Below are positions 5,677-58,105 of a DNA stretch of 64,000 nucleotides, in pieces. The stretch's first letter is position 1. Each line of letters opens with the position of its first letter. The stretch comes from Endozoicomonas sp. GU-1 (GTDB lineage: Bacteria; Pseudomonadota; Gammaproteobacteria; Pseudomonadales; Endozoicomonadaceae). The notes beneath the pieces are model-generated. The model had not been told where the DNA came from. It did not search any database and worked only from the letters and a program-made list of their open reading frames with translations. The DNA lies in contig NZ_CP114771.1 of assembly GCF_027366395.1 (NCBI RefSeq), positions 310,001 through 374,000 of the forward strand, read 5' to 3'. A program made the translations under genes and the position numbers.

Positions 5677-8600
5677 TCAGTTAGTCTGTACCGAACTCAT
5701 TTCATGGGCTGGTTCCTGCGCAGGAACACTCTGCCTGTTCATTCGTTCTCTGATTCCCTGAATACCCTGTGATACTGAGTTGACCGCAGCGCTTGCCAGT
5801 TCTTTACCACGGGTAAGTGGTTTCATCGCCAGCTCCTTACCACGCAACCCATCCTGGTAACCGGTAATCCATTGATAGGTTGAATAGCCGGCAATCCCCA
5901 ATCCCAATCCGCCCGCCAGAAGGGAACCTGTGGTAATTCCTCCCACCGTAGCGGCTGTTGACGCTGTAACGTCTGTTGACACTGTGTCGGCGGCTGCCGC
6001 AGGTGTTGGCTCTTTAGCGGCTGTTGACGCTGTAGCGGCAGTTGATGCTGTAGTGGGTGTTGACTCTTTAGCGGCTGTTGATGCTGTAGCGTCTGTAGAC
6101 ACTGTAGCGGCATTTACCGGACAAACCGATAAATCCAGCGCATCCCGAAATTCAGTTCTCGAAGAGCAATTGGCTGTTAACACACGAGGGTCTGCATTTT
6201 GGCAAAAAAGTTGATCATTGGAGATAGATCCAAAATTCTTTTTATTGCCATTGACATAGCTGTTCACCGCCTGGGTGTTGGTAACCTTTCCTCCAAGGCC
6301 GAATTTCCCCCCGATGTAGGCTTGTGCAGCATAACCCCTGGTATTGACATAGCTGTTCACTGCCGTGGTTTTGTCAACCGTTCCTCCAAAGTAAACCATC
6401 GCCCCCCCGATGCCGGCGTTTGCATGCTGACTCCTGGTTTCGACCCCGCAGTTCAACGCTGTGGTTTTGGCAACCGTTCCTCCATCGTGAACCGACCCCC
6501 CCCCCCCGATGCCGGCGTATGCATAGTCACCCGAGGTTGTGACATAGCTGTTCACTGCCGTGGTTTTGTCAACCGTTCCTCCATTTACTACCTCCCCCCC
6601 CCCCCGATGCCGGCGAATGAACCCCAAGCCGAGGTTGTGACACGGCTGTTCACCGCCATGGTGTTGGCAACTTCTCCTTCAACCCACCCACCCCCGATGC
6701 CGGCTTTTGATTGCCAACTCACGGTTTCGACCGTGCAATTCAACGCTGTGGTGTTGGCAACCGTTCCTCCACGCTTAACAGCCCCCCCCCCCCCGATGCC
6801 GGCGTCTGCACGCGAACCCACGGTTTTGACCGTGCTGTCCACCGCCATGATGTTGACAACCGTTCCGTAAACCCACCCCCCCCCCGATGCCGGCTTTTGC
6901 ATCACCCGAGTTGACAATATGAACATTTTCCGCCCAGATATTACTGACTGTGCCAGTATCATCAACAACACAGGCTGCTAACCCGGTCGTCTTGTGGGAA
7001 TTTATATCGGCACCAGTAAAGTTAAGGTTCCTGATGCTGCCTTGCAGAGTGTCAACAAAACAGTCAGACAGGCCGCTGATGGTACGGCACTGCCCATCGA
7101 ACTCCCCGGTGAATGGATGGGTATGATTGCCAATGGATTGATAGTCTTTAGTGACAACAATATCCGCTGTCTGTTGATAGGCACCGTTTAGTGGATAGTC
7201 GGGGTGTCGGCCAATCTTGCCCAGGTTTTCTGCATCATTAATCTTTATGGGTGTTGATGCGGTAGTGGGTGTTGACTCTTTAGCGGCTGTTGATGCTGTA
7301 GCGGTTGTTGACTCTTTAGCGGCAGTTGTTGCTGTAGTGGGTGTTGACTCTTTAGCGGCTGTTGTTGCTGTAGTGGGTGTTGACTCTTTAGCGGCAGTTG
7401 TTGCTGTAGTGGGTGTTGACTCTTTAGCGGCTGTTGATGCTGTAGTGGGTGTTGACTCTTTAGCGGCTGTTGATGCTGTAGTGGGTGTTGACTCTTTAGC
7501 GGCTGTTGATGCTGTAGTGGGTGTTGACTCTTTAGCGGCATTTACCGGGCAAACCGATAAATCCAACGCATCCCGAAATCCGGTTCTCGAAGAGCAATTG
7601 GCTGTTAACACACGCGGGTCTGCATTTTGGCAAAGAAGCTGATCATTGGAGATGGATCCAAAATCCTTTTTATGGCCATTGACAAAGCTGTTCACCGCCT
7701 TGGTTTTGTCAACCGTTCCTAAATTGTCCCCCCCCCCCCCCGATGCCGGCGTGTGAACGGTCACCCTCGGTTGTGACATGGCTGTTCACCGCCGTGGTGT
7801 GGGCAACCGTTACTCTGTATACCCACCCCCCCCCCGATGCCGGCGTGTGAACGGTCACCCTCGGTTTTGACATGGCTGTTCACCGCCGTGGTTTTGTTAA
7901 CTGTTCCGTAAACCTCCCCCACCCCCGATGCCGGCGAATGCAAATTCACCCTCGGTTGTGACATGGCTGTTCACCGCCGTGGTGTGGGCAACCGTTCCTC
8001 CATTTATCCCCCCCCCCCCCCCGATGCCGGCGTATGCATATTCACCCTCGGTTGTGACATGGCTGTTCACCGCCGTGGTTTTGTCAACCGTTCCGTAAAC
8101 CCGCCCAGCCCCGATGCCGGCGCTTGCCGATGTACCCGAGGTTTCGACACTGCTGTTCAACGCTGTGGTGTTGGCAACCGTTCCTTCAATCCGCCCCCCC
8201 CCCCCTATGCCGGCGTCTGCATCGTCACCCGAGTTGACAATATGAACGTCTTTCGCCCGGATATTACTGACTGTGCCAGTATCATCAACAACACAGGCTG
8301 CTAACCCGGTCGGCTTCGCGGAATTTGTTATATTGGCACGAGTAAACTGAAGGTCACTGATGCTGCCTTCCAGAGTGTCAACAAAACAGTCAGACAGGCC
8401 GCTGATGGTATGGCACTGCCCATCGTACTCCCCGGTGAATGTGCCAATGGGTTTATGGTCTTTATTGACAACAATATTCGCTATCTGTTGATAGGTGCCG
8501 CTTAGTGGATAGGCGGGATCTCGACCAATCTTGCCCAGGGTTTTTGCATCCTCTATGGGTACCGGGCAAGACGATAAATCCAACGCAACCCGAAATTCAG

Positions 8601-10625
8601 TTCTCGGAGAGCAATTGGCTTTTAGCACACGTAGGTCTGCTTTTTGGCATAAAAGCTGATCATAGGAGATAGATCCAAAATTCTTTTTATTGCCATTGAC
8701 AAAGCTGTTCACCGCCTTGGTTTTGTCAACCGTTCCTAAAATGTACCCACCCCCGATGCCGGCGTATGCACGGTCACCCGTGGTTGTGACATGGCTGTTC
8801 ACCGCCGTGGTGTGGGCAACCGTTCCTTCAATGTAAACCACCCCACCCCCGATGCCGGCGGATGCATATCTACCCTCGGTCTTGACCGTGCTGTACACCG
8901 CCGTGGTGTTGGCAACCGGTCCTGTGACCGCCCCCCCCCCCCCGATGCCAGCGTATGATTCATCACCCGAGGTTGTGACATGGCTGTACACCGCCGTGGT
9001 GTTGACAACCGTTCCTCCATTTAACCCCCCCCCCCCCCGATGCCAGCGTATGATTCATAACCCGAGGTTGTGACATGGCTGTTCACCGCCGTGGTGTCGG
9101 CAACCTTTCCTTCACCCCCCCCCCCCCCCCCCCGATGCCGGCTTTTGCATCTCTACCCTTGGTTTTGACATTGCTGTACACCGCCGTGGTTTTGGCAACC
9201 GTTCCTCCACCGTCAACCTCCCCCCCCCCCCCGATGCCGGCGTCTGCATACCAACCCGAGGTTGTGACATGGCTGTTCACCGCCGTGGTGTCGGCAACCG
9301 TTCCTCCACGTCGAACCCCCCCCCCCCCCGATGCCGGCGTCTGCATACCAACGCGAGGTTGTGACATTGCTGTTCATCGCCGTGGTGTTGGCAACCGTTC
9401 CGTCAACCCGCCCACCCCCGATGCCGGCTAATCCCCATGTACCCGAGGTTTCGACCCTGCTGTTCAACGCTGTGGTGTTGGCAACCTTTCCTCCAGCGTT
9501 AATCCCCCCCCCCCCCCCGATGCCGACGTATGCATGAAAACCCACGGCTTTGACTGTGCTGTTCACCGCCGTGGTGTTGGCAACCGTTCCTCCACGTTCA
9601 ACAATCCCCCCCCCCCGATGCCGGTTTCTGCCCGAGGACCCGTAGTTTTGACATGGCTGTTCACCGCCCTGGTATTGGCAACCGTTCCTCCAGCTTTAAC
9701 CTCCCCCCCCCCCCCCGATGCCGGCGTCTGCCCGAAAACCCGAGGTTGTGACATGGCTGTTCACCGCCATGATGTTGGCAACCATTCCTTTAACCCGCCC
9801 CCCCCCCCCGATGCCGGCGTCTGCATACATACCCGAGTTGACAATATGAACATTGACCGCCCGGATATTACTGACTGTGCCAGTATCATCAACAACACAG
9901 GCTGCTAACCCGGTCGTCTTCTGGGAATTTATATTGGCATCAGTAAAGTGAAGGTTCCTGATGCTGCCTTGCAGAGTGTCAACAAAACAGTCAGACAGGC
10001 CTCTGATGGTATGGCACTGCCCATCGTACTCCCCGGTGAATGTGCCAATGGGTTTATGGTCTTTACTGACAACAATATCCGCTGTCTGTTGATATTTGCC
10101 GTTTGGTGGAAATTCGGGATGTCGACCAATCTTGCCCAGGTCTTCTGCATTATTAATCGATTTCGAATTCGCATACTGAAAAGAACTGGCCAGCGTGCCA
10201 AGTGCAAGCAGTCCCTTGGCTCCCTGACTCCCTTGATAGTAGGCCGTGGATGGCTGTTGAAGGGGTACGGTTTTCGAGCCGGGTTCTTTTTCCCGGGTTT
10301 CTTTTAATATCTGTGGTAATTCCGGTTTTGCATCCGGCCCGGGCAAACCGCTCCCGGACCAGGCATTGGCCATATCTTTCGCCATGAAAAGGATGGAACT
10401 CGATGGCAGGATAGTTGTTGTGGCCAGTCGCAAAAGATCTTTCACTGCTTTGCGGGAATTAAAACTGAGGTGAGGGTCTTCTGTTGGAATCAATGATTTC
10501 ATAAATGCTTTAGAAACAGCAACGCCATGGCCGAGCCAGGAATATTCGGCACCATTCCCTGAACATTGGGAAGCGCTGTCGCAAATTGGTTGCTGAATTG
10601 ATTGCTGAATGGGTTGCTGAATCAT
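5677..10625 (-). CDS. Giant modular GLUG-like repeat protein with poly-G coding tracts, frames broken
   Basis: Starts at ATG 10625 with CAGGAG nine bases upstream and ends at 5677. As one gene it would encode about 1,650 residues. Order: 115-residue head with QQP repeats, no signal peptide; then three super-modules. Each has a lead-in domain (about 10160-9833, 8560-8226, 7250-6905; GKIGRxP, FTGEYDGQC, GLSDCFVDTL), a block of 32-residue repeats (about 12, 6 and 7 copies; VANTTAVNSHVTT then AGIGGGG), and a cap with SISNDQLLCQ and paired Cys (about 8720-8565, 7700-7545, 6265-6110). A Thr/Ala-rich stretch, one hydrophobic segment (GSLLAGGLGLGIAGYSTYQW) and a charged tail end it. The repeat resembles GLUG motifs of surface adhesins and proteases, probably a beta-helix. 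The Gly runs come from poly-G, and the frame changes about ten times. Function is inferred: surface or effector protein. Confidence 0.75.
6496..9809 (+). repeat. Seventeen poly-C tracts (C10-C19) inside the GLUG gene
   Basis: Start positions and lengths on the plus strand: 6496 C12, 6594 C12, 6782 C13, 6876 C10, 7728 C14, 7826 C10, 8008 C15, 8194 C12, 8931 C13, 9025 C14, 9115 C19, 9220 C13, 9316 C14, 9504 C15, 9606 C11, 9703 C14, 9798 C12. Each sits just before GATGCCGGC, once per 96-base repeat, and encodes the Gly run of AGIGGGG. The protein frame is kept across 9798, 9504, 9220, 8931, 8194, 8008, 6782 and 6496. It changes at the other nine tracts and at an interrupted G5-T-G5 stretch at about 7915-7925. 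Several units (for example near 6690, 7920, 8112 and 8850) have an interrupted run instead. Confidence 0.9.
7250..7541 (-). repeat. 36-bp tandem repeat encoding AAKESTPTTAST
   Basis: About eight copies of a 36-base unit, recognised by GTTGACTCTTTAGCGG recurring every 36 bases on the plus strand. On the coding strand each encodes a 12-residue Thr/Ser/Ala/Lys unit forming a flexible linker between the second cap and the third lead-in of the GLUG protein. A shorter degenerate version lies at about 5945-6105. Being a multiple of three, copy-number change keeps the frame. Confidence 0.85.
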
Positions 10626-10697: not shown

Positions 10698-10935
10698 GTT
10701 CGTTTATGCAGTGACGTAAAAGTTCCCGGGTTATGTTTTTTTTATAGTGGACGCGATGCCTACGTTAAAAGTGTCGTGTTATCTTTATACTTGAATGGTG
10801 GTAAAACTAATTAAAATTAGCGGAAAAAGTAGCGTTTTAATCCTTTTACCTTATTGATGGCCGTTTATTCAGATGTAATTTTGTATTCCTATTCGTCTAT
10901 GCAGTGACGTAAAATTTTCCATTTTTTTTATTTTA
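10698..10935. promoter_or_regulatory. Direct repeat pair upstream of the GLUG gene
   Basis: The string TATGCAGTGACGTAAAA occurs at about 10704 and again at about 10898, about 193 bases apart. Both copies follow TTCGT and are followed by similar CC-containing and poly-T/AT-rich bases. They lie in the AT-rich 10626-11184 gap upstream of the minus-strand GLUG start, with no credible gene between them. A pair of regulator sites or duplicated promoter DNA is plausible; no regulator is identified. The rest of the gap shows nothing I can name. Confidence 0.45.
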
Positions 10936-12201: not shown

Positions 12202-13735
12202 CTACTTATCTGAATGAACCAGTGGATAGAACCGCTTGAGTTCAAGCAGTCGATAGCCGGTGTACTGACCAAGCAGCAGAACAATGCCCAACAAGGTGAG
12301 CATCAGTTCAGGGAAGTTGAAGGTGAGCTGTTCAACAATGGGATTGGACATCAACAGGTAACTCAGGGTGGCTACCAGAAGACTGCCGCCGCCTTCTTTC
12401 ACGACATCGCCGGGGCCTTCTTCTTCCCAGAGGATGGACATCCGCTCAATGGTCCATGCCAGAATGATCATCGGGAAGAAAGTGACCGTCAGTGCCTGGG
12501 TAATGCCCAGTTTCCAGCTGAAGATGCTCATGGCGGCCATGATCAGAATGACAACAATGATGACAGCCCCCAGCCGTGCCACTAGCAGCATGTTTTGCTG
12601 ACTAAGGAAAGACCGTATCCATAAACCAATGGATACCAGGGGAGGTGAAAATCACCAGCCCGGGTATTAATTGAGTTTGCAGGAAAGCCATGGCAATAAG
12701 CACCGGCATAAAGGTACCGGAGGTGCGCAGGCCAACGATGATGCGCATAAATAGCACAACCAATACCCCGATCGGTATCAACAGAATGATCTTGAAGGCA
12801 TTCTGGACTTCCAATGGCAGGGAGTAGATGGAAAAGTCTATTAAGGCGGCACCATCCTGGTTTGCCTGGGTGAGTGCCAGCTCCCGGGTCGGGGCATTCT
12901 GGGAAATAATAGAGAACCTGACGTCAGAGTTAACCCCGCCCATCACATCCAGCAGTGATTTGGCCCCGCGCTGCCAGAGAAAGAAGGCGTCCGGGTTACC
13001 TGCTTTACCGGTTTTGGGATCAAAGAGCTGCCATTCGGTGCCATCATACACCTCTATCATGTCGATAATGGGTTGTCTGCGTCGGCCATCTTCCAGGTGC
13101 AGGCCCCGGACAATGCGAGCGGGGATATTATTCATGTGGAGTAGATTGACCAGCAAGTCCGGAAGCTTGACCCCTTCTTCCACCATGCCGAGCAGCATAT
13201 TGGTGTTCTGGCCGGGTTCTTTGGCATTAAACTGGCTGATCATGGAGCCGACAAAACTGACCGTGTCGGCTGAGTGTTCAGTCACCTGTTTTAACAGGCT
13301 TTTGGCCGCGGTTTGATAGGGTTCGGGCAGCACGGGCGCAATGAACGGTTCGGGCTGGTCATTCACGTTGGGGTTGATGCCGGGCTCCAGGCGGATCTTA
13401 ACCTTATAAAACAGATCCTGGCGACCATCCGCTTTGCGGATACTCCAGACGGCACGGCGCTGACCGCCATCGTTGGTCTGGTTAATGCCATAGCCGGGTG
13501 AGGCAAAGGATTCATCGAGAATTCTTACATCGGGCTGCTGATCCGGAAGGGTCAGGCTTGCCTGGGCAGCCTGTCCCCGGGCTTTGAAGCTCACCCAGGC
13601 TTCAATACTCCAGACAGTAGAGACATCCTTGCCCAATAGCGGAAAACCCAGTGCAAAGTGTTTGTACAGGGTTAATCCCAGGCCGGCGACAATCAGTCCG
13701 GCAATCATAAGGCCAAGCTGAAAACGACCTTTCAT
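12202..13735 (-). CDS. Inactive-transglutaminase / 7TM membrane protein, frame change near 12643
   Basis: Two frames, 13735-12602 and about 12640-12202, join into one 510-residue protein if the C4 near 12643 (coding strand TCCCCTGG) loses one base. The junction then reads GLVIFTSLVSIGLWIRSFLS. Order: N-terminal membrane anchor (about 7-27), a periplasmic transglutaminase-like domain lacking an evident Cys-His-Asp triad, then seven hydrophobic helices with a conserved GLRTSGTFMPVLIA loop. This is the family described as inactive transglutaminase fused to seven transmembrane helices, which normally has about this length. It lies between the retropepsin-like and ATP-grasp genes, probably one operon. 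An assembly error is at least as likely as a true break. Confidence 0.8.
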
Positions 13736-50275: not shown

Positions 50276-53200
50276 GTGGTGGGATCTATGAACATTCAAA
50301 ATAGTGGAAACAATGTACAATTGGCATCAGAGCGTAACTTGTCGGCCAAAAAGGCAAAATTGAAGCAGCCGTTAAAGCCAGTGGATATGTGCGTTGAAGT
50401 ACAATCCAGGCTGCATTTAACGTTACCCCGGATTCCGCTGTCTGACAATGCGAGAACTGTATGCTTACAGGTTTCACCAAACCTGAGGTTTGCACATTCC
50501 TTTGATTTTCGTTTTGTCGCTAATAATAATCAGGTTCGACATCTTTTATCTGCGCAAACCCATGATGAGCAGCAAGACGTAGTCATTCTTTCTCATCCGG
50601 ATGATCTCTCGCAGGGGAACCTGCTCAGCCGCTTGAGTATTTCCGGGACCGGTCATCACTCTCTGAAACCGGGCAAGCTATTTGAAAATAATGAGCCTTT
50701 GACCCTGGTTATCGATATCCGAATGCTCACCAGTGACGAGCTGCCAAAACTTAATGATTTGCTGGATCCGGATAATCCTTGTCTGTTTGACCAGGTCACT
50801 CAGAAAAAACGTGCTCTGGGTGAACATGTTTCGCTGCTGGTATTGGCCAGTCATGAGCAGTTGGCGATGGTGGGGAAAAGTGACGAAGCACCGGGTGCGG
50901 ATTTCTGGCGACGCATTAATCGACCGGGCAATACCTGGCAGTTTGACGCAGACAATGGCAATCACCAGACAATGGACATCGGTGATGTGCCACCGATATT
51001 GGCTGAACTCTCCCCGGGCAGTGCTATGGATGATGGCAATACCGTTATTATCCACTGTCATTTGCACAGTAATTGGCGACAGCTGTTTTTTGGTGGACCC
51101 GGGGTGGATAAGCAGGGGCGTATCCGGCACCTGCCAGGCAAATTTGAGCAATTGGAAACCGGGCAGCGGGTGATTCTTAAAGGAGCCGACTGGAATAATC
51201 TGGCATTTGAACAGACCATTCGCCAACTGTTGGCGCAAAGGCGTTATGAGAGCAACGGTGCGGTCTGTACGCTGCCAGAAGATATTCAGTTTTACCGGAT
51301 GCCGGTGGGAGATGACGAGCTGCTATCGCTGTTGCAAATCATGGCTAACTCTGGGGATGCAAGACTTGCCAGTAATGAGCCACAAAACCCATTGATTATT
51401 AACCATGGCAATATTATGGAATGGTTGGGGCCAATCAGTATCGGGCAGGAGGGTTTTGCGGTTCCTAACACCAGCTTGCTGGACCAGATGAAGGCCGGTG
51501 ACGTGGTGACAGTCACTTCACCTCTCAGTGAAGCGCGCTGGTTTCTTTTGCTGGGTGCACTGCAGAATATCCAGCAGACCACAGGGGTAAAACCGAAGCT
51601 TCAGGTTGCTCATTCACAGCGGCAACCGCAATCACTTGGGCTGACAGAAAAAGCCGGGCAACCCGAACTGGCCAGCAGTATTGGCGGTAAAGATAATAAC
51701 GGGGATCACGCCCCCGTTAACACAGTGACTTATCAGCACAGTGCCCAGGCAAATCATTGGATTAATGGCCATCAGGAAATTCCCCTGGTGATACAGATCA
51801 ATAACCAGACCGGCTTCAGCCAGTTGTTTGACAATATCTTTGTCACTTCGGAGCAAAAGGCGTATTTTGGCCGCTGTCAGAGCGGCTTGCAGGCAGCTTT
51901 GACCACGGGCAAGCCAGTTGTATTCCGGGGGCTGGAGAGCAATCCAAAGCTTCAGCAGCTGCTTGAGCCCCTGGTATCTGGACAACCCCTGCTGGTTAAC
52001 GGCATATTACAGGCTTACCCGAAAGCCTGTATCACAGTACTCTGGCCTGAGCTTGCCCAAAGCCCATCCCCGGTATGGAGCGCAATGATCGCCGCTGCAG
52101 AGTTGTGTCCACCGGTAGATATCTGGAATATCACCGCCGAACATCATGGTATGTCCCGGACTGAACTCCCGGAACAGGCGCTCAGGCAACTCTGCGAAGC
52201 TTTTAAAACCGTACCTGCCACCCTTTGTCATCCATTGCCTGAAATCACAGAAGGGCTGTTGAATAACCTGATATTGGCTGCCCGGCGGGCACAGCAGGTT
52301 GACCATGCACCGCAGCTGCAACCCTGCCATTGGCGCAAAGCCATCGATAGCGTATTCAGCCATGGCACCCGTCAGAATCGATCAGTTCGTGATTTTATGA
52401 AGGTGGCTTGCAGACAGCTATTGCCGGATACAGCGCAAACTGCCTGGGTGGATCCTGATCGTTTGAATGCTGTCATTAACAGTGCCCAGCCGTTGGACAG
52501 GAGTTTTGTCCGCCTCAATGTGTGGCAACTGGCCAGGGCTTTTGGCCCGACTGTATTTGAACAACTGAACCTGTCCTATGAATATCCATTTCAAGCGTGC
52601 ATGTCCAACGAATGTATGGATTGCCTCTGTGCCTTGATTGTCGCGCAAACGCCCCGGATGCAGCGAAGTTCGGTGGCTTTTCAGCTGCAGGTTGACCCAC
52701 GGCAGGCAGAGCAGTACCAACAGTTAGCAATCAGGCCACAACATCAGATCAGGCGGTTGGAAGATGCGCTGGCTTCTGGCTGGCAGTTACGTCCACATTC
52801 AGCACAGACTCGATCTGATGCCATTCATACTCTGGCGATGGATTGTTATCGTGTTAGCCAGGAGAGAGTGTCCAGAAATAGTGACCCAGAGCGTATTTCA
52901 CGCCTGGAGCATCTATTGGTGCAATCACTTGAATGGCAGGGTTGCGCTCAGGCTCCACTTCAGGCGCTGGCCCATGATCTTTATTACGGTTCGGTTGACC
53001 AGAAGGATCGGGAACTTCGTCGTTTATCCAGGCTGCATGACCGGCTTGAGGATTCCCCCGTCATTTTCCTGCAGGGAGAAACCGGGACTGGTAAAAGTTA
53101 TTTCGCCGCCAAAACTGCCGAGGCGTCCGGATTGGCTTCGCTGATTTCTCTGGGCCCCTGCGACAGCGAACAGACCCTGATGAAACGCTGGCAATGGCGG

Positions 53201-56200
53201 GAACATACCGGCTCTGGGGCTGGTGGTGACCGTTATATGGCATTACAAGAACGGGCGTTACTGGAGTGGGCCAATACTCAACCCGCTGCTGCAGGTCATT
53301 ATATTACAGTGGTTCTGGATGAGGCCAATCTGGCCAATACCGGATTGCAGGCTTCACTGAATGGTTTATGGGAACCGGCACCGTGCATCTATGTTAACGG
53401 TCACCCGGTCAAGGTGACTGCTCAGCACCGAGTGATTTTGACCGGTAACCCGGGCCATTACGCCGGGCGCCAATTAGACCCTGTGCTGAAGGAGAAACTG
53501 TCCGGGGCATACTACCTTCCCTTAAATCGGGCTTTTCTCCGGGACCGGGTGGTTGAACCTGCTCTGCTCAGGCAGTTACAACGGTATTTGCCAGAACCGC
53601 AAACAGACGACATTGTACGCAGCGCCAGTGACCGTGTGATGGTGCTTTGGCAATATTATCCGGAATTGCTGCCGGAACATGAGTTTACCCCCAGGGATTT
53701 GACCGATATCTGCAGCTGGGTGGGTTGGTATCTGGATCGTGCATTAGCCAATAGGCACAGACAGGGCAGCGTTACCCGTGAGCAGGTGGATGGGTTGATC
53801 TTGCAGAGTTTTCAGGATGTACTGGGCTCAGAAATTCCCGGGGTGAGTCAGGATGCCAGGACAGCACTGGAACTCTGGTTTTCTGCCCGTGACCAGGTAG
53901 ACAACACTTTGAGAGACCTGGTACATAATCAGGTCCTGGAGGTTATACGTAACACTTTTATCCGGGCGACGTTACAAACCCGGCCTGAGTTTGATACCTC
54001 CGGATCAGCGGTCAGTGAATTGGTGCAACGGCTTGGTCAGGATTTAAGCCGATGTCAGCAGGCGCATCATCACGTCAGAAAACATCATGGTCGTCAGGCT
54101 ACCCTGATTGAAGGCCCCGCCGGGCGGGGTAAGGATGTCACCCTGAACCTGTTGCTTGAAAGCTTCAAACAGCAGGTTGCACAGCGGGGAGAATCCATGC
54201 CGGAGGTATTTTATTGCAATGCCGGGGATTGTTCCTGGGACAGAGTGTGCGAAGCCATCCAGCGGGCGAAAGTCAATGGCGGCATCGTAGTCATTTCTGA
54301 ATTGAATCTGATTGATAGCCAGCACCTGGAGGGGAAACTTAATGCTATTCTGGCCGGTGATGCTCATCCGGGTTTCCACCTGTTTGCCACCACCAATCCT
54401 CCCCGGTACAGTGGCCGGAAACCGTTATCGCCAGCGCTCAAAGGACGTTTCCGCTATTTGCCCATCCGACAATATAATCCGGCGGAACTGCTGGCCATTG
54501 TTGAAAAAGTGTTGCCACAAACGCCAGAGGGAAAGTCCGCAGCTGCATTGTTGACACAGTGGCACTGTCAACTGAGGGCCTGTTTGCAACAGCAAGGCCT
54601 GCCCTTGCAGCCCACCGGCCTGGATTTACAAAAGCTGGCCAGGGCCGTCATTAAAGACGGAGACTTTACCGAAAATGCGCTCCGTCAACACATCAATCAT
54701 CACTATCAGCTTTATTTTATCGCGGTCAGGGCAACCCTGGAGAAATTGCCAGAATTATCGGCTGTACCCATTGGCCAGTGGGGGATTGATCCTGTACTTT
54801 GCAATTGGTTTCACCACACCAGGGCTGGCTCTGATCGCCCCTGGTTGATACGTCGCAGCAATCTCAACCATATTGATGAACAGCACCGTGAAATACACAT
54901 CAAGGCTGACCTGAGTGATGCAGAGGCCCGAACGGAAATCATCAGGCGTGTGGCTCAGGCCCAATGGCTGGCTTCGGGTCTCTCCCCCGAAACCGAAAGA
55001 TGCGGATGATATTCTGACCCAGACTCTTTATCGATACTGGCAGCACTGCTGGTTTGATCACAGGTTTAATCAGACTGGGGTGGAGGCAAATACTGTTTTT
55101 ACCCTGACGGATGCCCAAAAGCAAACCCTGGAAATGTCCACTAACCAGCCATACTTCCGGGAAGCTGACAAACAGATAAGTGCATGGGATGCCAACAAGG
55201 TTTTTTTGTGGCCTGCCTTTTGGCAGAAAATTTCACGGATACTATCAAACCCCGTCAGACACTATTCCTGCAGTGGCAGAAAAAGGTCAGATTCTCCCAG
55301 TTCCGACGCAGAAGCGATGGCCCATAAACTGACAAAAACTGGTGGACAATATCCTGGTGCTGTTTCAGTAAAATATCCTGGTGCTGTTTCAGTAAATAGT
55401 GGCGATACACACAACGCTCCGGGAAAGCCACTCTCTGAAGCAGCTCAATCTGCACCACGGGAAAATGGCAAAACAGAGGCTGCCACTATCTGTGCAAACG
55501 ATACCCTGCCTCTTGATAATCAGGCAGAACTACCCGCCAAAACGACTCATTATCTGGATGTTGATACCGCTTATGAACACAGAGCGTTACGTCAGTTGGT
55601 GATGAGAAAGATTTTTGCCTCTCGTGAAAGTCCCGGGATGTATCGCCTGGAGGTCTTTGATGTGGCTTTGAATAATCAGGGTAATGTTGAACTACGAAGT
55701 TTTAGCCCCGGGGCGCACGGTCTTGAGCTGGTGTTTCCCGCCACTCTGCCTGATGGAGAAGTAACCCTGGGCAGAGAGCAGAGTCTGGGTGTTCATTGCC
55801 TGCGGGTACACAAGGATAAGTATTTTTACCTGCCAGGTCTGAACCCGGATGAAACTATCCGGGCTTTGCGAATAAAACCGTCTCTGGATTACCGGTTGAT
55901 AAAAGACAGGTATACAGGCCTTCACATGGTGCTTTTTTCAAATGTCGGGGATGATCAGGAAGTAACAGTTAATTACGTTGTAGAAAAAAGAGTGACAGAA
56001 AGTTCGTGTGAAAAAACATCGGTCGACACGTTGGATTTATTGCAGCAATCTGGCGACGCGAGGTTAGACTGCACTGTTTCTGAACCCATGAAATTACAAT
56101 TAACTGAATTCTTTAACGGCTTCGCAGCAGCTGATATGGCAGAGAATCAAAAGGAACAGATTCGTTGTATTCAGTCGGCAAAGATCCTGAAAGATCGTAT

Positions 56201-58105
56201 TGCTGCAATAGCAGAGTACTGCAAAAATTTTAAGGGCTCAGAGAAATATGAAAGTGGCGAAGGTTTTTTTCGCTTTCTGCTGTGGCGTCAACAGGGCAAG
56301 TGTCAACACAGAACGCCCATATTTGTGGCGCTCTGCCGCTATTTTGGAATTCCTGCACGCGCAGTAAGCGGTAATTACCACCTATATCCGGAGTATTCAC
56401 TGGATGGCGGAATGAGCTGGAAGTCAGAGGATCTCGGAGGCGCTCCTGCACAGGTAAAACGAATCGAACCTGGCTTTCAGCCTTTCCGGCAGGGAAGTGG
56501 TTCCAGCACCGAGTCAAGAATATTAAGGCGTTTCTGGAAAGTGCTGATCCAGAGCAACTGCAGCGCCTTGCCAAAGCTTATGGTCGGAGTGTCGAAGATC
56601 TGCACAAAGCTCTTGAGGCAGGCTGTGCATTACCAAATAAAACGCCAGGTACCAGCGAGGTGGTAAGAAGGCTATGGGAAGGCAAAGACTTAACCGGTTT
56701 TTCTCTGGGAGTCTCAATCCTGGTAAAGAAAGAGACACTGAACTTTGAGGAATATCGGTTGATTGGCAAGGTGCTTTGTAGGCATACCGATACCTACTAT
56801 AAACCGATGTCTGAGGCGGTGATTCAAATATTGTCCAGCAGTAGTGAAGATCAGGTGACCGGACTGCTCAAGGCGCTCTACTCAAAAACGATTGTTCACA
56901 ACCGTTCTGGAGATCATGACGATTGGCTGGGTTCAATGGTGGATATACTGACAGAGAGTAATTTAGCCCACCCCCCAGTCATTCATTTTGCCGTTGAAGC
57001 ATTCAAGGCGGGTTGGCTAAGACCCCCGCAAAGTTACCCTAGCCATATTATTCCAGCTGGTAAGTATCATGACCTGATGGTACGTCTGGAAACTGTCAAG
57101 GAATTGAAGGCTCAGACCGTCAGTTACCTGGAACATTGGTATAAAGCATTGCTGACTCCGTTGGGGAATAGCCAGAATTGGCTGAGTCTTTACGATTGGG
57201 AACTGAAAGGAAACGATCATTTTTTCGTAACCCAAAGCTTTAATGGGGTTTCGCCATTCCTGGAAGAAAAAATCGACTGTTCGTTTTTACAGTTGTCCTG
57301 GACGAACAACCCTGAGGGCATTCCGGACATTGAGCGAATGTTGGTGCGAAAACCCGCTTTTCCACAATTTAACGCCAGTAAGACTGGCATTCGCCCGGTT
57401 ATTATACTGGGTAAGCCTGAGTGGGCCTACACAGTTATCGCGGATGAAGTAGAAGCCCATTATTCATCAGAACCATGGCAGGTTATGGAAAAAAACTTCA
57501 GATTTAATCTGACAAATGATCAATATCACGCTGAAGTTTCTAAAGTATCCGGAAAACATACTAATAAAACTCACAGGACTGTTCGTCTGCCAGCGAAGCG
57601 AGAAGGTAGTCGAGATCAAAAAGAGTCTGAAGAGATTAATAAAAAAACCAAGGAAATCTGGGCCAGGTACATGCCAATTATAAATTCCCTCCGTGTGTCT
57701 GGTAATGACCGTTCAAGTGTCCCTGAAACTGTCGTTAAACAGGCTATTTACCAGGCATTCATTTATTACCTGTATCATATGACAAAAACCAGGGGCAGTC
57801 GTTTAACTTATTGTTTTCTGGAGGCCTATGTCGGACGCAGATATTCCAACAGATATGGTGCCCATGAGGTATCCTCACCGGAAGAGCTGTATGCCATGAT
57901 GATTAAAACACAGAATAATTCTGCTCTTGAAAGATCTGTTAAGGCCCGTTATCTGAGGCAGGCACACAACTCGGGCAATGCGCTGGTGCTTAAATCTGAG
58001 GAATTAACCACCATTGCCAGGGAATTCCTGAATACGGTAAATTTTAAGTCGATTTATGAGTCACTGCTAAATGCTCGGGATCCTGTCGGATTTAAGCGCC
58101 CGTAG
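50276..58105 (+). CDS. Giant twin-AAA+ ATPase / transglutaminase-like protein, two frame changes
   Basis: Three overlapping frames (50276-55009, up to 56666, about 56480-58105) join into one protein of about 2,609 residues. One C less in the C5 near 54981 gives GLSPKPKDADDILTQ; one T more in the T3 near 56486 gives GFQPFPAGKWFQHRVKNIK. Start GTG 50276 or ATG 50288. Residues 1-900 are unrecognised. AAA+ module 1: Walker A QGETGTGKS (about 937), Walker B VVLDEANLA (about 1015), sensor VILTGNPGHYAGR. Module 2: EGPAGRGKD (about 1280), VVISELNLID (about 1340), FATTNPPRYSGRKPLSP and GRFR. Both resemble the MoxR/midasin/dynein branch. A transglutaminase-like domain follows (about 1985-2060; GKCQHRTPIFVALCRYFGIP, then NYHLYPEYS and SEDLGG) with candidate Cys, His and Asp. 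The last 500 residues are unknown. MoxR ATPases commonly pair with transglutaminase-like proteins; here they are fused. Confidence 0.75.
55347..55396 (+). repeat. 24-bp tandem duplication in the giant gene
   Basis: AATATCCTGGTGCTGTTTCA occurs twice, 24 bases apart, encoding YPGAVSVK then YPGAVSVN in the linker before the transglutaminase-like part. In frame and probably recent. Confidence 0.8.

Follow-up and report, generated by a model that had tools for sequence, protein, structure and literature searches.

Results

The window analyzed here is a 64,000-nucleotide stretch of the Endozoicomonas sp. GU-1 genome (NZ_CP114771.1, positions 310,001 to 374,000), and on its reverse strand, at 5677 to 10625, lies a large repeat gene that an initial annotation had proposed to encode a combinatorial phase-variable surface protein. 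The gene runs from an N-terminal region through three M26-like domains, behind each of which lies an array of repeat units, to a C-terminal tail; all of its features are on the reverse strand and are given in window coordinates. The start codon, with AGGAG upstream, opens a conserved N-terminal region of 154 amino acids (10164 to 10625), followed by the first M26/GLUG-like domain (9819 to 10154) and unit array 1 (8737 to 9818). A closing segment and the second M26-like domain (8218 to 8736) precede unit array 2 (7720 to 8217), and a closing segment, a linker and the third M26-like domain (6895 to 7719), with eight copies of a 36-base linker repeat at 7252 to 7539, precede unit array 3 (6286 to 6894). 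The last part (5680 to 6285), consisting of a closing segment, a linker, a hydrophobic stretch and a conserved tail, lies 3′ of every tract described below.

The three arrays are built from a unit of ~32 residues (~96 bases) with the consensus AGIGGG..V.GTVANTTAVNS.V.TSG..A. We counted 25 units, 24 by pattern and a divergent one at about 6320 spotted by eye, and in 17 of the 25 the GIGGG turn contains a pure run of 10 to 19 G residues. Read on the plus strand, the gene contains exactly 17 C runs of at least 10, 10 to 19 bases long, and a single C7. Over both strands of the window there are 71 matches to the C10 pattern, 70 within the gene, whereas 100 dinucleotide shuffles gave an average of 0.28; mononucleotide tracts are thus present in this coding sequence beyond chance, as in slipped-strand phase-variable genes. 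The recount agrees with the initial annotation on the 25 units and on the 17 long tracts, one per ~96-base repeat at the same place, and we regard this anatomy of units, domains and one tract per repeat as well supported.

Comparison of the residues before and after each tract reproduced the reported division into eight tracts that keep the frame and nine that change it, as a reading of the assembly. The frame is kept at G12 (9798 to 9809), G15 (9504 to 9518), G13 (9220 to 9232), G13 (8931 to 8943), G12 (8194 to 8205), G15 (8008 to 8022), G13 (6782 to 6794) and G12 (6496 to 6507). As assembled, it shifts by +1 at G14 (9703 to 9716), G14 (9316 to 9329), G10 (7826 to 7835), G14 (7728 to 7741) and G10 (6876 to 6885) and by +2 at G11 (9606 to 9616), G19 (9115 to 9133), G14 (9025 to 9038) and G12 (6594 to 6605). 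A tenth change (+1) falls in an interrupted unit (7902 to 7935) rather than at one of the 17 tracts, and the start codon (10625) and stop codon (5677) are in different frames in the assembly.

The GU-1 genome, a single contig of 6,085,864 bases, was sequenced on the Nanopore platform (kit LSK112); Flye was used for assembly and Medaka for polishing, without short reads (PMC10019302). We therefore looked at G/C runs of at least 9 outside the gene family, using a classifier that scores the coding frame on each side of a run. Among 62 such runs, drawn from 100 places among the 110 in the genome, 41 had unclear coding on their flanks; in the remaining 21, whose flanks were both clearly coding, the frame changes at 18 and is kept at 3, a proportion that is not an error rate, because selecting runs called long favors those that were overcalled. 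As a control, 160 random points in eight long genes, which were also used to train the classifier, gave 152 in frame, 8 unclear and 0 shifted. The stretches scored, mostly chosen around long runs, together with the window also gave clear A/T runs of 4 to 8, of which 37 of 571 were classed as shifted.

Three of the affected genes are ispD, aroB and ctaD. In each, one family was matched on either side of the run in different frames in GU-1, and the gene is a single open frame in both relatives compared, with 1 to 2 bases fewer at the run: G10 in GU-1 against G8 or G6AG for ispD, G9 against G7 or G6T for aroB, and G10 against GGTGGTGGC for ctaD. ispD and ctaD are hardly dispensable. The gene adjacent to the repeat gene, at 12202 to 13735, is also split, into frames of 377 and 129 amino acids here, and is one 510-amino-acid frame in Endozoicomonas acroporae; the alignment, over 2640 bases, has a single gap, placed by eye near CCTCCCCTGG. 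Across the whole genome, runs of at least 9 number 110 in GU-1 (43 in family units), versus 21 in E. acroporae Acr-14 (G001), 42 in the record "Salinisphaera sp. G21_0" (G004), and 18, 20 and 28 in G002, G003 and G005; for exact G7 runs the counts are 183 in GU-1 versus 257, 274, 70, 220 and 195, respectively.

These observations make it very likely that the GU-1 assembly inflates G/C runs, probably lengthening G runs of 7 to 9 by 1 to 2 bases and longer runs as well; a mismatched polishing model may be behind the inflation. Tract lengths from this Nanopore-only consensus are not reliable, and because ispD, aroB and ctaD are broken at G runs by the same assembly, the nine changes in frame do not count as evidence for phase variation. 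The many frame shifts at the window tracts are best explained as sequencing errors. Two further runs with a frame change were noted: a G10 at 2130 to 2139, where the frame changes in a gene with a weak, below-cutoff SET-domain match, and a G15 at which a major facilitator transporter gene (L133 1620; G000 about 489620) is split into two frames.

Members of the gene family in relatives provided a view of the tracts from outside this assembly. The relatives were E. acroporae, G21_0, G008 and G009; E. acroporae was assembled from MiSeq reads at 448× (PMC5805887), and the G21_0 contigs have SPAdes-style names. The G21_0 record (loci L009, L011 and L012) is classed in the genus of the window and is probably mislabeled. 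Pattern searches gave 189 unit matches, of which 3 were judged spurious and 186 were counted by run length. In GU-1 the units in frame were 55 of 57 at runs of up to 6, 2 of 3 at 7, 8 of 19 at 8 to 10 and 11 of 29 at 11 or more. The relatives had 53 of 54 in frame at runs of up to 6 and 20 of 24 at 8 to 10, with none longer among the units fetched, and the difference from GU-1 at runs of 8 to 10 has a P value of 0.009.

The four shifted tracts among those 24 units are G8 or G9, one of them in E. acroporae, and slips at G8 to G9 thus occur independently of the GU-1 assembly. The E. acroporae member on contig C78 is split by one slip at G8 (unit at L116 4003), leaving open frames of 387 and 381 residues, the latter running into the normal tail. 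The syntenic E. acroporae gene, whose neighbors are about 97 to 98% identical in DNA, is open for 738 amino acids up to the contig end, with runs of up to 10. Among the contig ends listed, those falling at a tract were 5 of 7 in G21_0, 1 of 1 in G008, 0 of 8 in E. acroporae, 0 of 1 in G009 and 0 of 1 in G007; the P value of 0.03 for G21_0 is weak because it assumes 30 of 96 bases. Two paralogues differ in other ways. L105, with an open frame of 875 amino acids, has an in-frame G12 run at another place of the unit (L105 2058), and L106, whose frame breaks outside the unit tracts, is likely a decayed copy.

Away from the tracts, the unit bodies examined show no damage. Of the 189 matches, 138 had a neighbor close enough for the body between two tracts to be assessed, and none of these 138 bodies (21 from the window gene, 117 from others) contained a stop codon or had an off-frame length. 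In this respect the gene is otherwise intact, as slipped-strand phase-variable genes are. The tail 3′ of all tracts gave ratios of nonsynonymous to synonymous substitution (dN/dS) of 0.29 to 0.59 in seven of seven comparisons (nominal P < 0.05 for dN < dS in three) and, judged from these alignments, looks to be under purifying selection. Duplicate loci L009 to L015 were excluded from the alignments, one set of which also dropped alignments under 60 codons; rows with stops and alignments covering less than 70% of a segment were excluded from the dN/dS calculations, whose results were listed for the best 14 rows per segment. For the M26-like parts, dN/dS exceeded 1 in many pairs, but we do not claim positive selection, because the lowest nominal P value, 0.027, is the lowest among dozens of uncorrected tests.

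The initial annotation had also raised the possibility of frame-swapped segments. In the window gene, the two alternative frames contain stops in 17 of 21 and 10 of 21 units. Over 70 units, 50 and 44 bear stops, compared with 30.8 (standard deviation, 4.0) and 48.6 (standard deviation, 3.9) expected from shuffles with family codon use and 53.6 and 53.5 with uniform codon use. Relative to family codon use, one alternative frame has an excess of stops (50 versus 30.8) and the other slightly fewer (44 versus 48.6), and we did not take these counts as support for frame-swapped peptides. Combinatorial frame swapping is thus left unsupported.

Codon use sets the tracts apart from the rest of the unit. 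Outside the tract, the glycine codons of 70 unit bodies from four GU-1 loci are GGC (73), GGT (63), GGA (5) and GGG (2); with GGG making up only 2 of 143, the tract is not ordinary glycine codon use. The turn Gly-Ile-Gly-Gly-Gly is mostly encoded GGC ATC GGG GGG GGG, so that most coils hold a pure G run. In paralogues L103, L105 and L109 the turn is mostly Gly-Ala/Val-Gly with mixed codons, and where tract-bearing members have GGG GGG GGG, interrupted units often have GGG GGT or GGA GGG. On this codon comparison, a run would arise from one synonymous change or one Ala/Val-to-Gly change.

For an intact relative of 849 amino acids, residues 188 to 686 are modeled as a β-solenoid in which each ~32-residue unit forms one coil, mostly with a predicted local distance difference test score (pLDDT) above 90; the C terminus of the relative is helical in the model, at low confidence. 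We take this fold as the prediction for the family. A search of solved structures with the sequence of this relative found nothing, Foldseek alone gave no match at an E value of 0.001 or better, and NCBIfam gave three weak, unrelated matches for one of three proteins. The closest family is PF05342 (Peptidase M26 N-terminal), which we take to be a GLUG-type solenoid. It scored 23.2, 20 and 13.2 bits in three pieces of the window protein and 12 and 25.3 bits in two relatives, all below the curated cutoff of 27.7, and, unlike M26 immunoglobulin A1 proteases, the proteins yielded no protease domain in Pfam scans. The solenoid fold is common to many adhesins, tailspikes and lyases. In contrast to autotransporter passengers such as Vag8 and UpaB, no translocator barrel was named by Pfam in the three proteins or pieces scanned, and no translocator family was matched at E values up to 1 in the C-terminal piece of the window protein or in the 849-amino-acid relative. 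The surface location originally proposed finds no backing here: by eye, the window protein has no obvious N-terminal signal sequence, only stretches of moderate hydrophobicity close to its two ends.

Discussion

We favor, at a probability of roughly 65%, the interpretation that the repeat gene is large and fast evolving, that its frame is open or nearly so, and that it has an unusual number of slippage sites, whose runs are lengthened by the assembly. In the cell the true tracts would be roughly 8 to 12 G, and the open state is likely the one found there. A one-base slip at any tract would truncate the protein, so that a population would consist mostly of full-length cells together with OFF cells truncated in many different ways; three-base slips would lengthen or shorten a turn by one glycine. 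The window gene is therefore at most a candidate on/off gene, though one with an unusually large number of switches. Of the phase-variable surface protein first proposed, the slip-prone tracts stand, given the 4 of 24 shifted units in relatives, but the frame changes in GU-1, where assembly error and variation look alike, do not serve as evidence, since ispD, aroB and ctaD break too.

Slipped-strand contingency genes with intragenic poly-G/C tracts are known from Campylobacter, Neisseria and Helicobacter, usually with one or two tracts each. The window gene resembles them in having pure G tracts of at least 8 inside coding sequence and shifted units in relatives; it differs in having many tracts, one per protein repeat, in belonging to a coral symbiont and in being known here from sequence alone. 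By this analogy, and given the slips in relatives, useful phase variation is plausible, although we only infer that switching is of use to the bacterium. If phase variation here is real, the number of tracts would go far beyond the one or two that such genes normally have, and this in a genus that dominates in corals. A full-text literature search for Endozoicomonas with "phase variation" found nothing, related terms gave no mention of Endozoicomonas among the matches listed, and searches for multitract genes gave no description among the matches listed.

Several points weigh against the favored interpretation. The sequencing platform is established for only one relative, E. acroporae, and the G21_0 contigs that end at tracts could hide runs longer than 10, so genuinely longer tracts may occur. 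Short runs can change frame as well, as at a run of 5 in the window and runs of 6 in L108 and L119, and 21 of 307 clear G/C runs of 4 to 6 in the stretches examined were classed as shifted. The control drawn from long runs is biased toward overcalled ones, and the housekeeping genes reveal that such errors arise, which does not make every one of the nine changes an error. Finally, the analysis is based on the assembly rather than raw reads and does not prove any individual tract length wrong.

The alternative that fares best, though we consider it unlikely, is that the tracts are a mutational by-product: the middle turn codon became GGG, occasional slips are purged by selection, and there is no adaptive switching. 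The turns of L103, L105 and L109 and of the interrupted units are one base change from GGG GGG GGG, and the relatives are in frame at 20 of 24 tracts, as this alternative would have it. However, GGG is nearly absent from the unit bodies yet is the rule at the tract, tracts recur across many units and several genomes, and the fetched family units hold 5 of 21 (E. acroporae) and 9 of 42 (G21_0) of all genome runs of at least 9.

Somewhat more speculative is a richer form of switching, in which up to 17 independent tracts, one switch to each repeat, would give a ladder of truncated β-solenoids of varying length and hence a graded set of products from one locus, in-frame slips would tune the coil turns, and several paralogues would vary at once.

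A true combinatorial locus, in which tract lengths in GU-1 cells are scattered, each tract may stand in one of three frames and the products differ widely in truncation length or carry frame-swapped segments, appears improbable. It would fit the 17 tracts within one gene, the slips in relatives, the in-frame share at GU-1 family tracts of at least 11 (11 of 29, near one third) and the one alternative frame with somewhat fewer stops than uniform codons would give (44 versus 53.5 of 70). Against it, ordinary genes are broken in the same way, and the direction of the shift follows the called length (10 of +1 to 1 of +2 at runs of 8 to 10; 6 to 12 at runs of at least 11; P = 0.006); moreover, the relatives are mostly in frame, and the tail below all tracts looks to be under purifying selection. 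Least probable is a decaying pseudogene copy with its frame lost at many places, for although the assembly lacks a single open frame and paralogue L106 is broken outside its unit tracts, the unit bodies examined are free of stops and off-frame lengths, the start, ribosome site and upstream element are kept, and the tail looks constrained.

Whatever the status of the repeat gene, the results carry a warning that frame calls at long G/C runs of this Nanopore-only genome are untrustworthy in any gene.

Additional observations

The element TTCGTYTATGCAGTGACGTAAAA is present in two copies upstream of the window gene (10699 to 10721 and 10892 to 10914). It was found twice at the E. acroporae locus L010 and once each, with 0 to 4 mismatches, at L009, L011, L106 and L108, with no match at L012, L013, L102 to L105, L107 and L109.

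PADLOC gave no match for four proteins from the area at 50276 to 58105, where a large AAA-domain gene (1577 amino acids) is followed by two genes.

Loss of mismatch repair was considered and rejected: mutS1 is present above the cutoff, and mutL is matched over its first 194 residues, the part examined. A C18 run (G000:C1:2858138-2858155; L132 3639-3656) lies upstream of mutL (identified by a MutL match), at a distance of about 160 bases, and adjoins a putative transposase gene. This run could serve to switch the expression of mismatch repair, or its length could be inflated.

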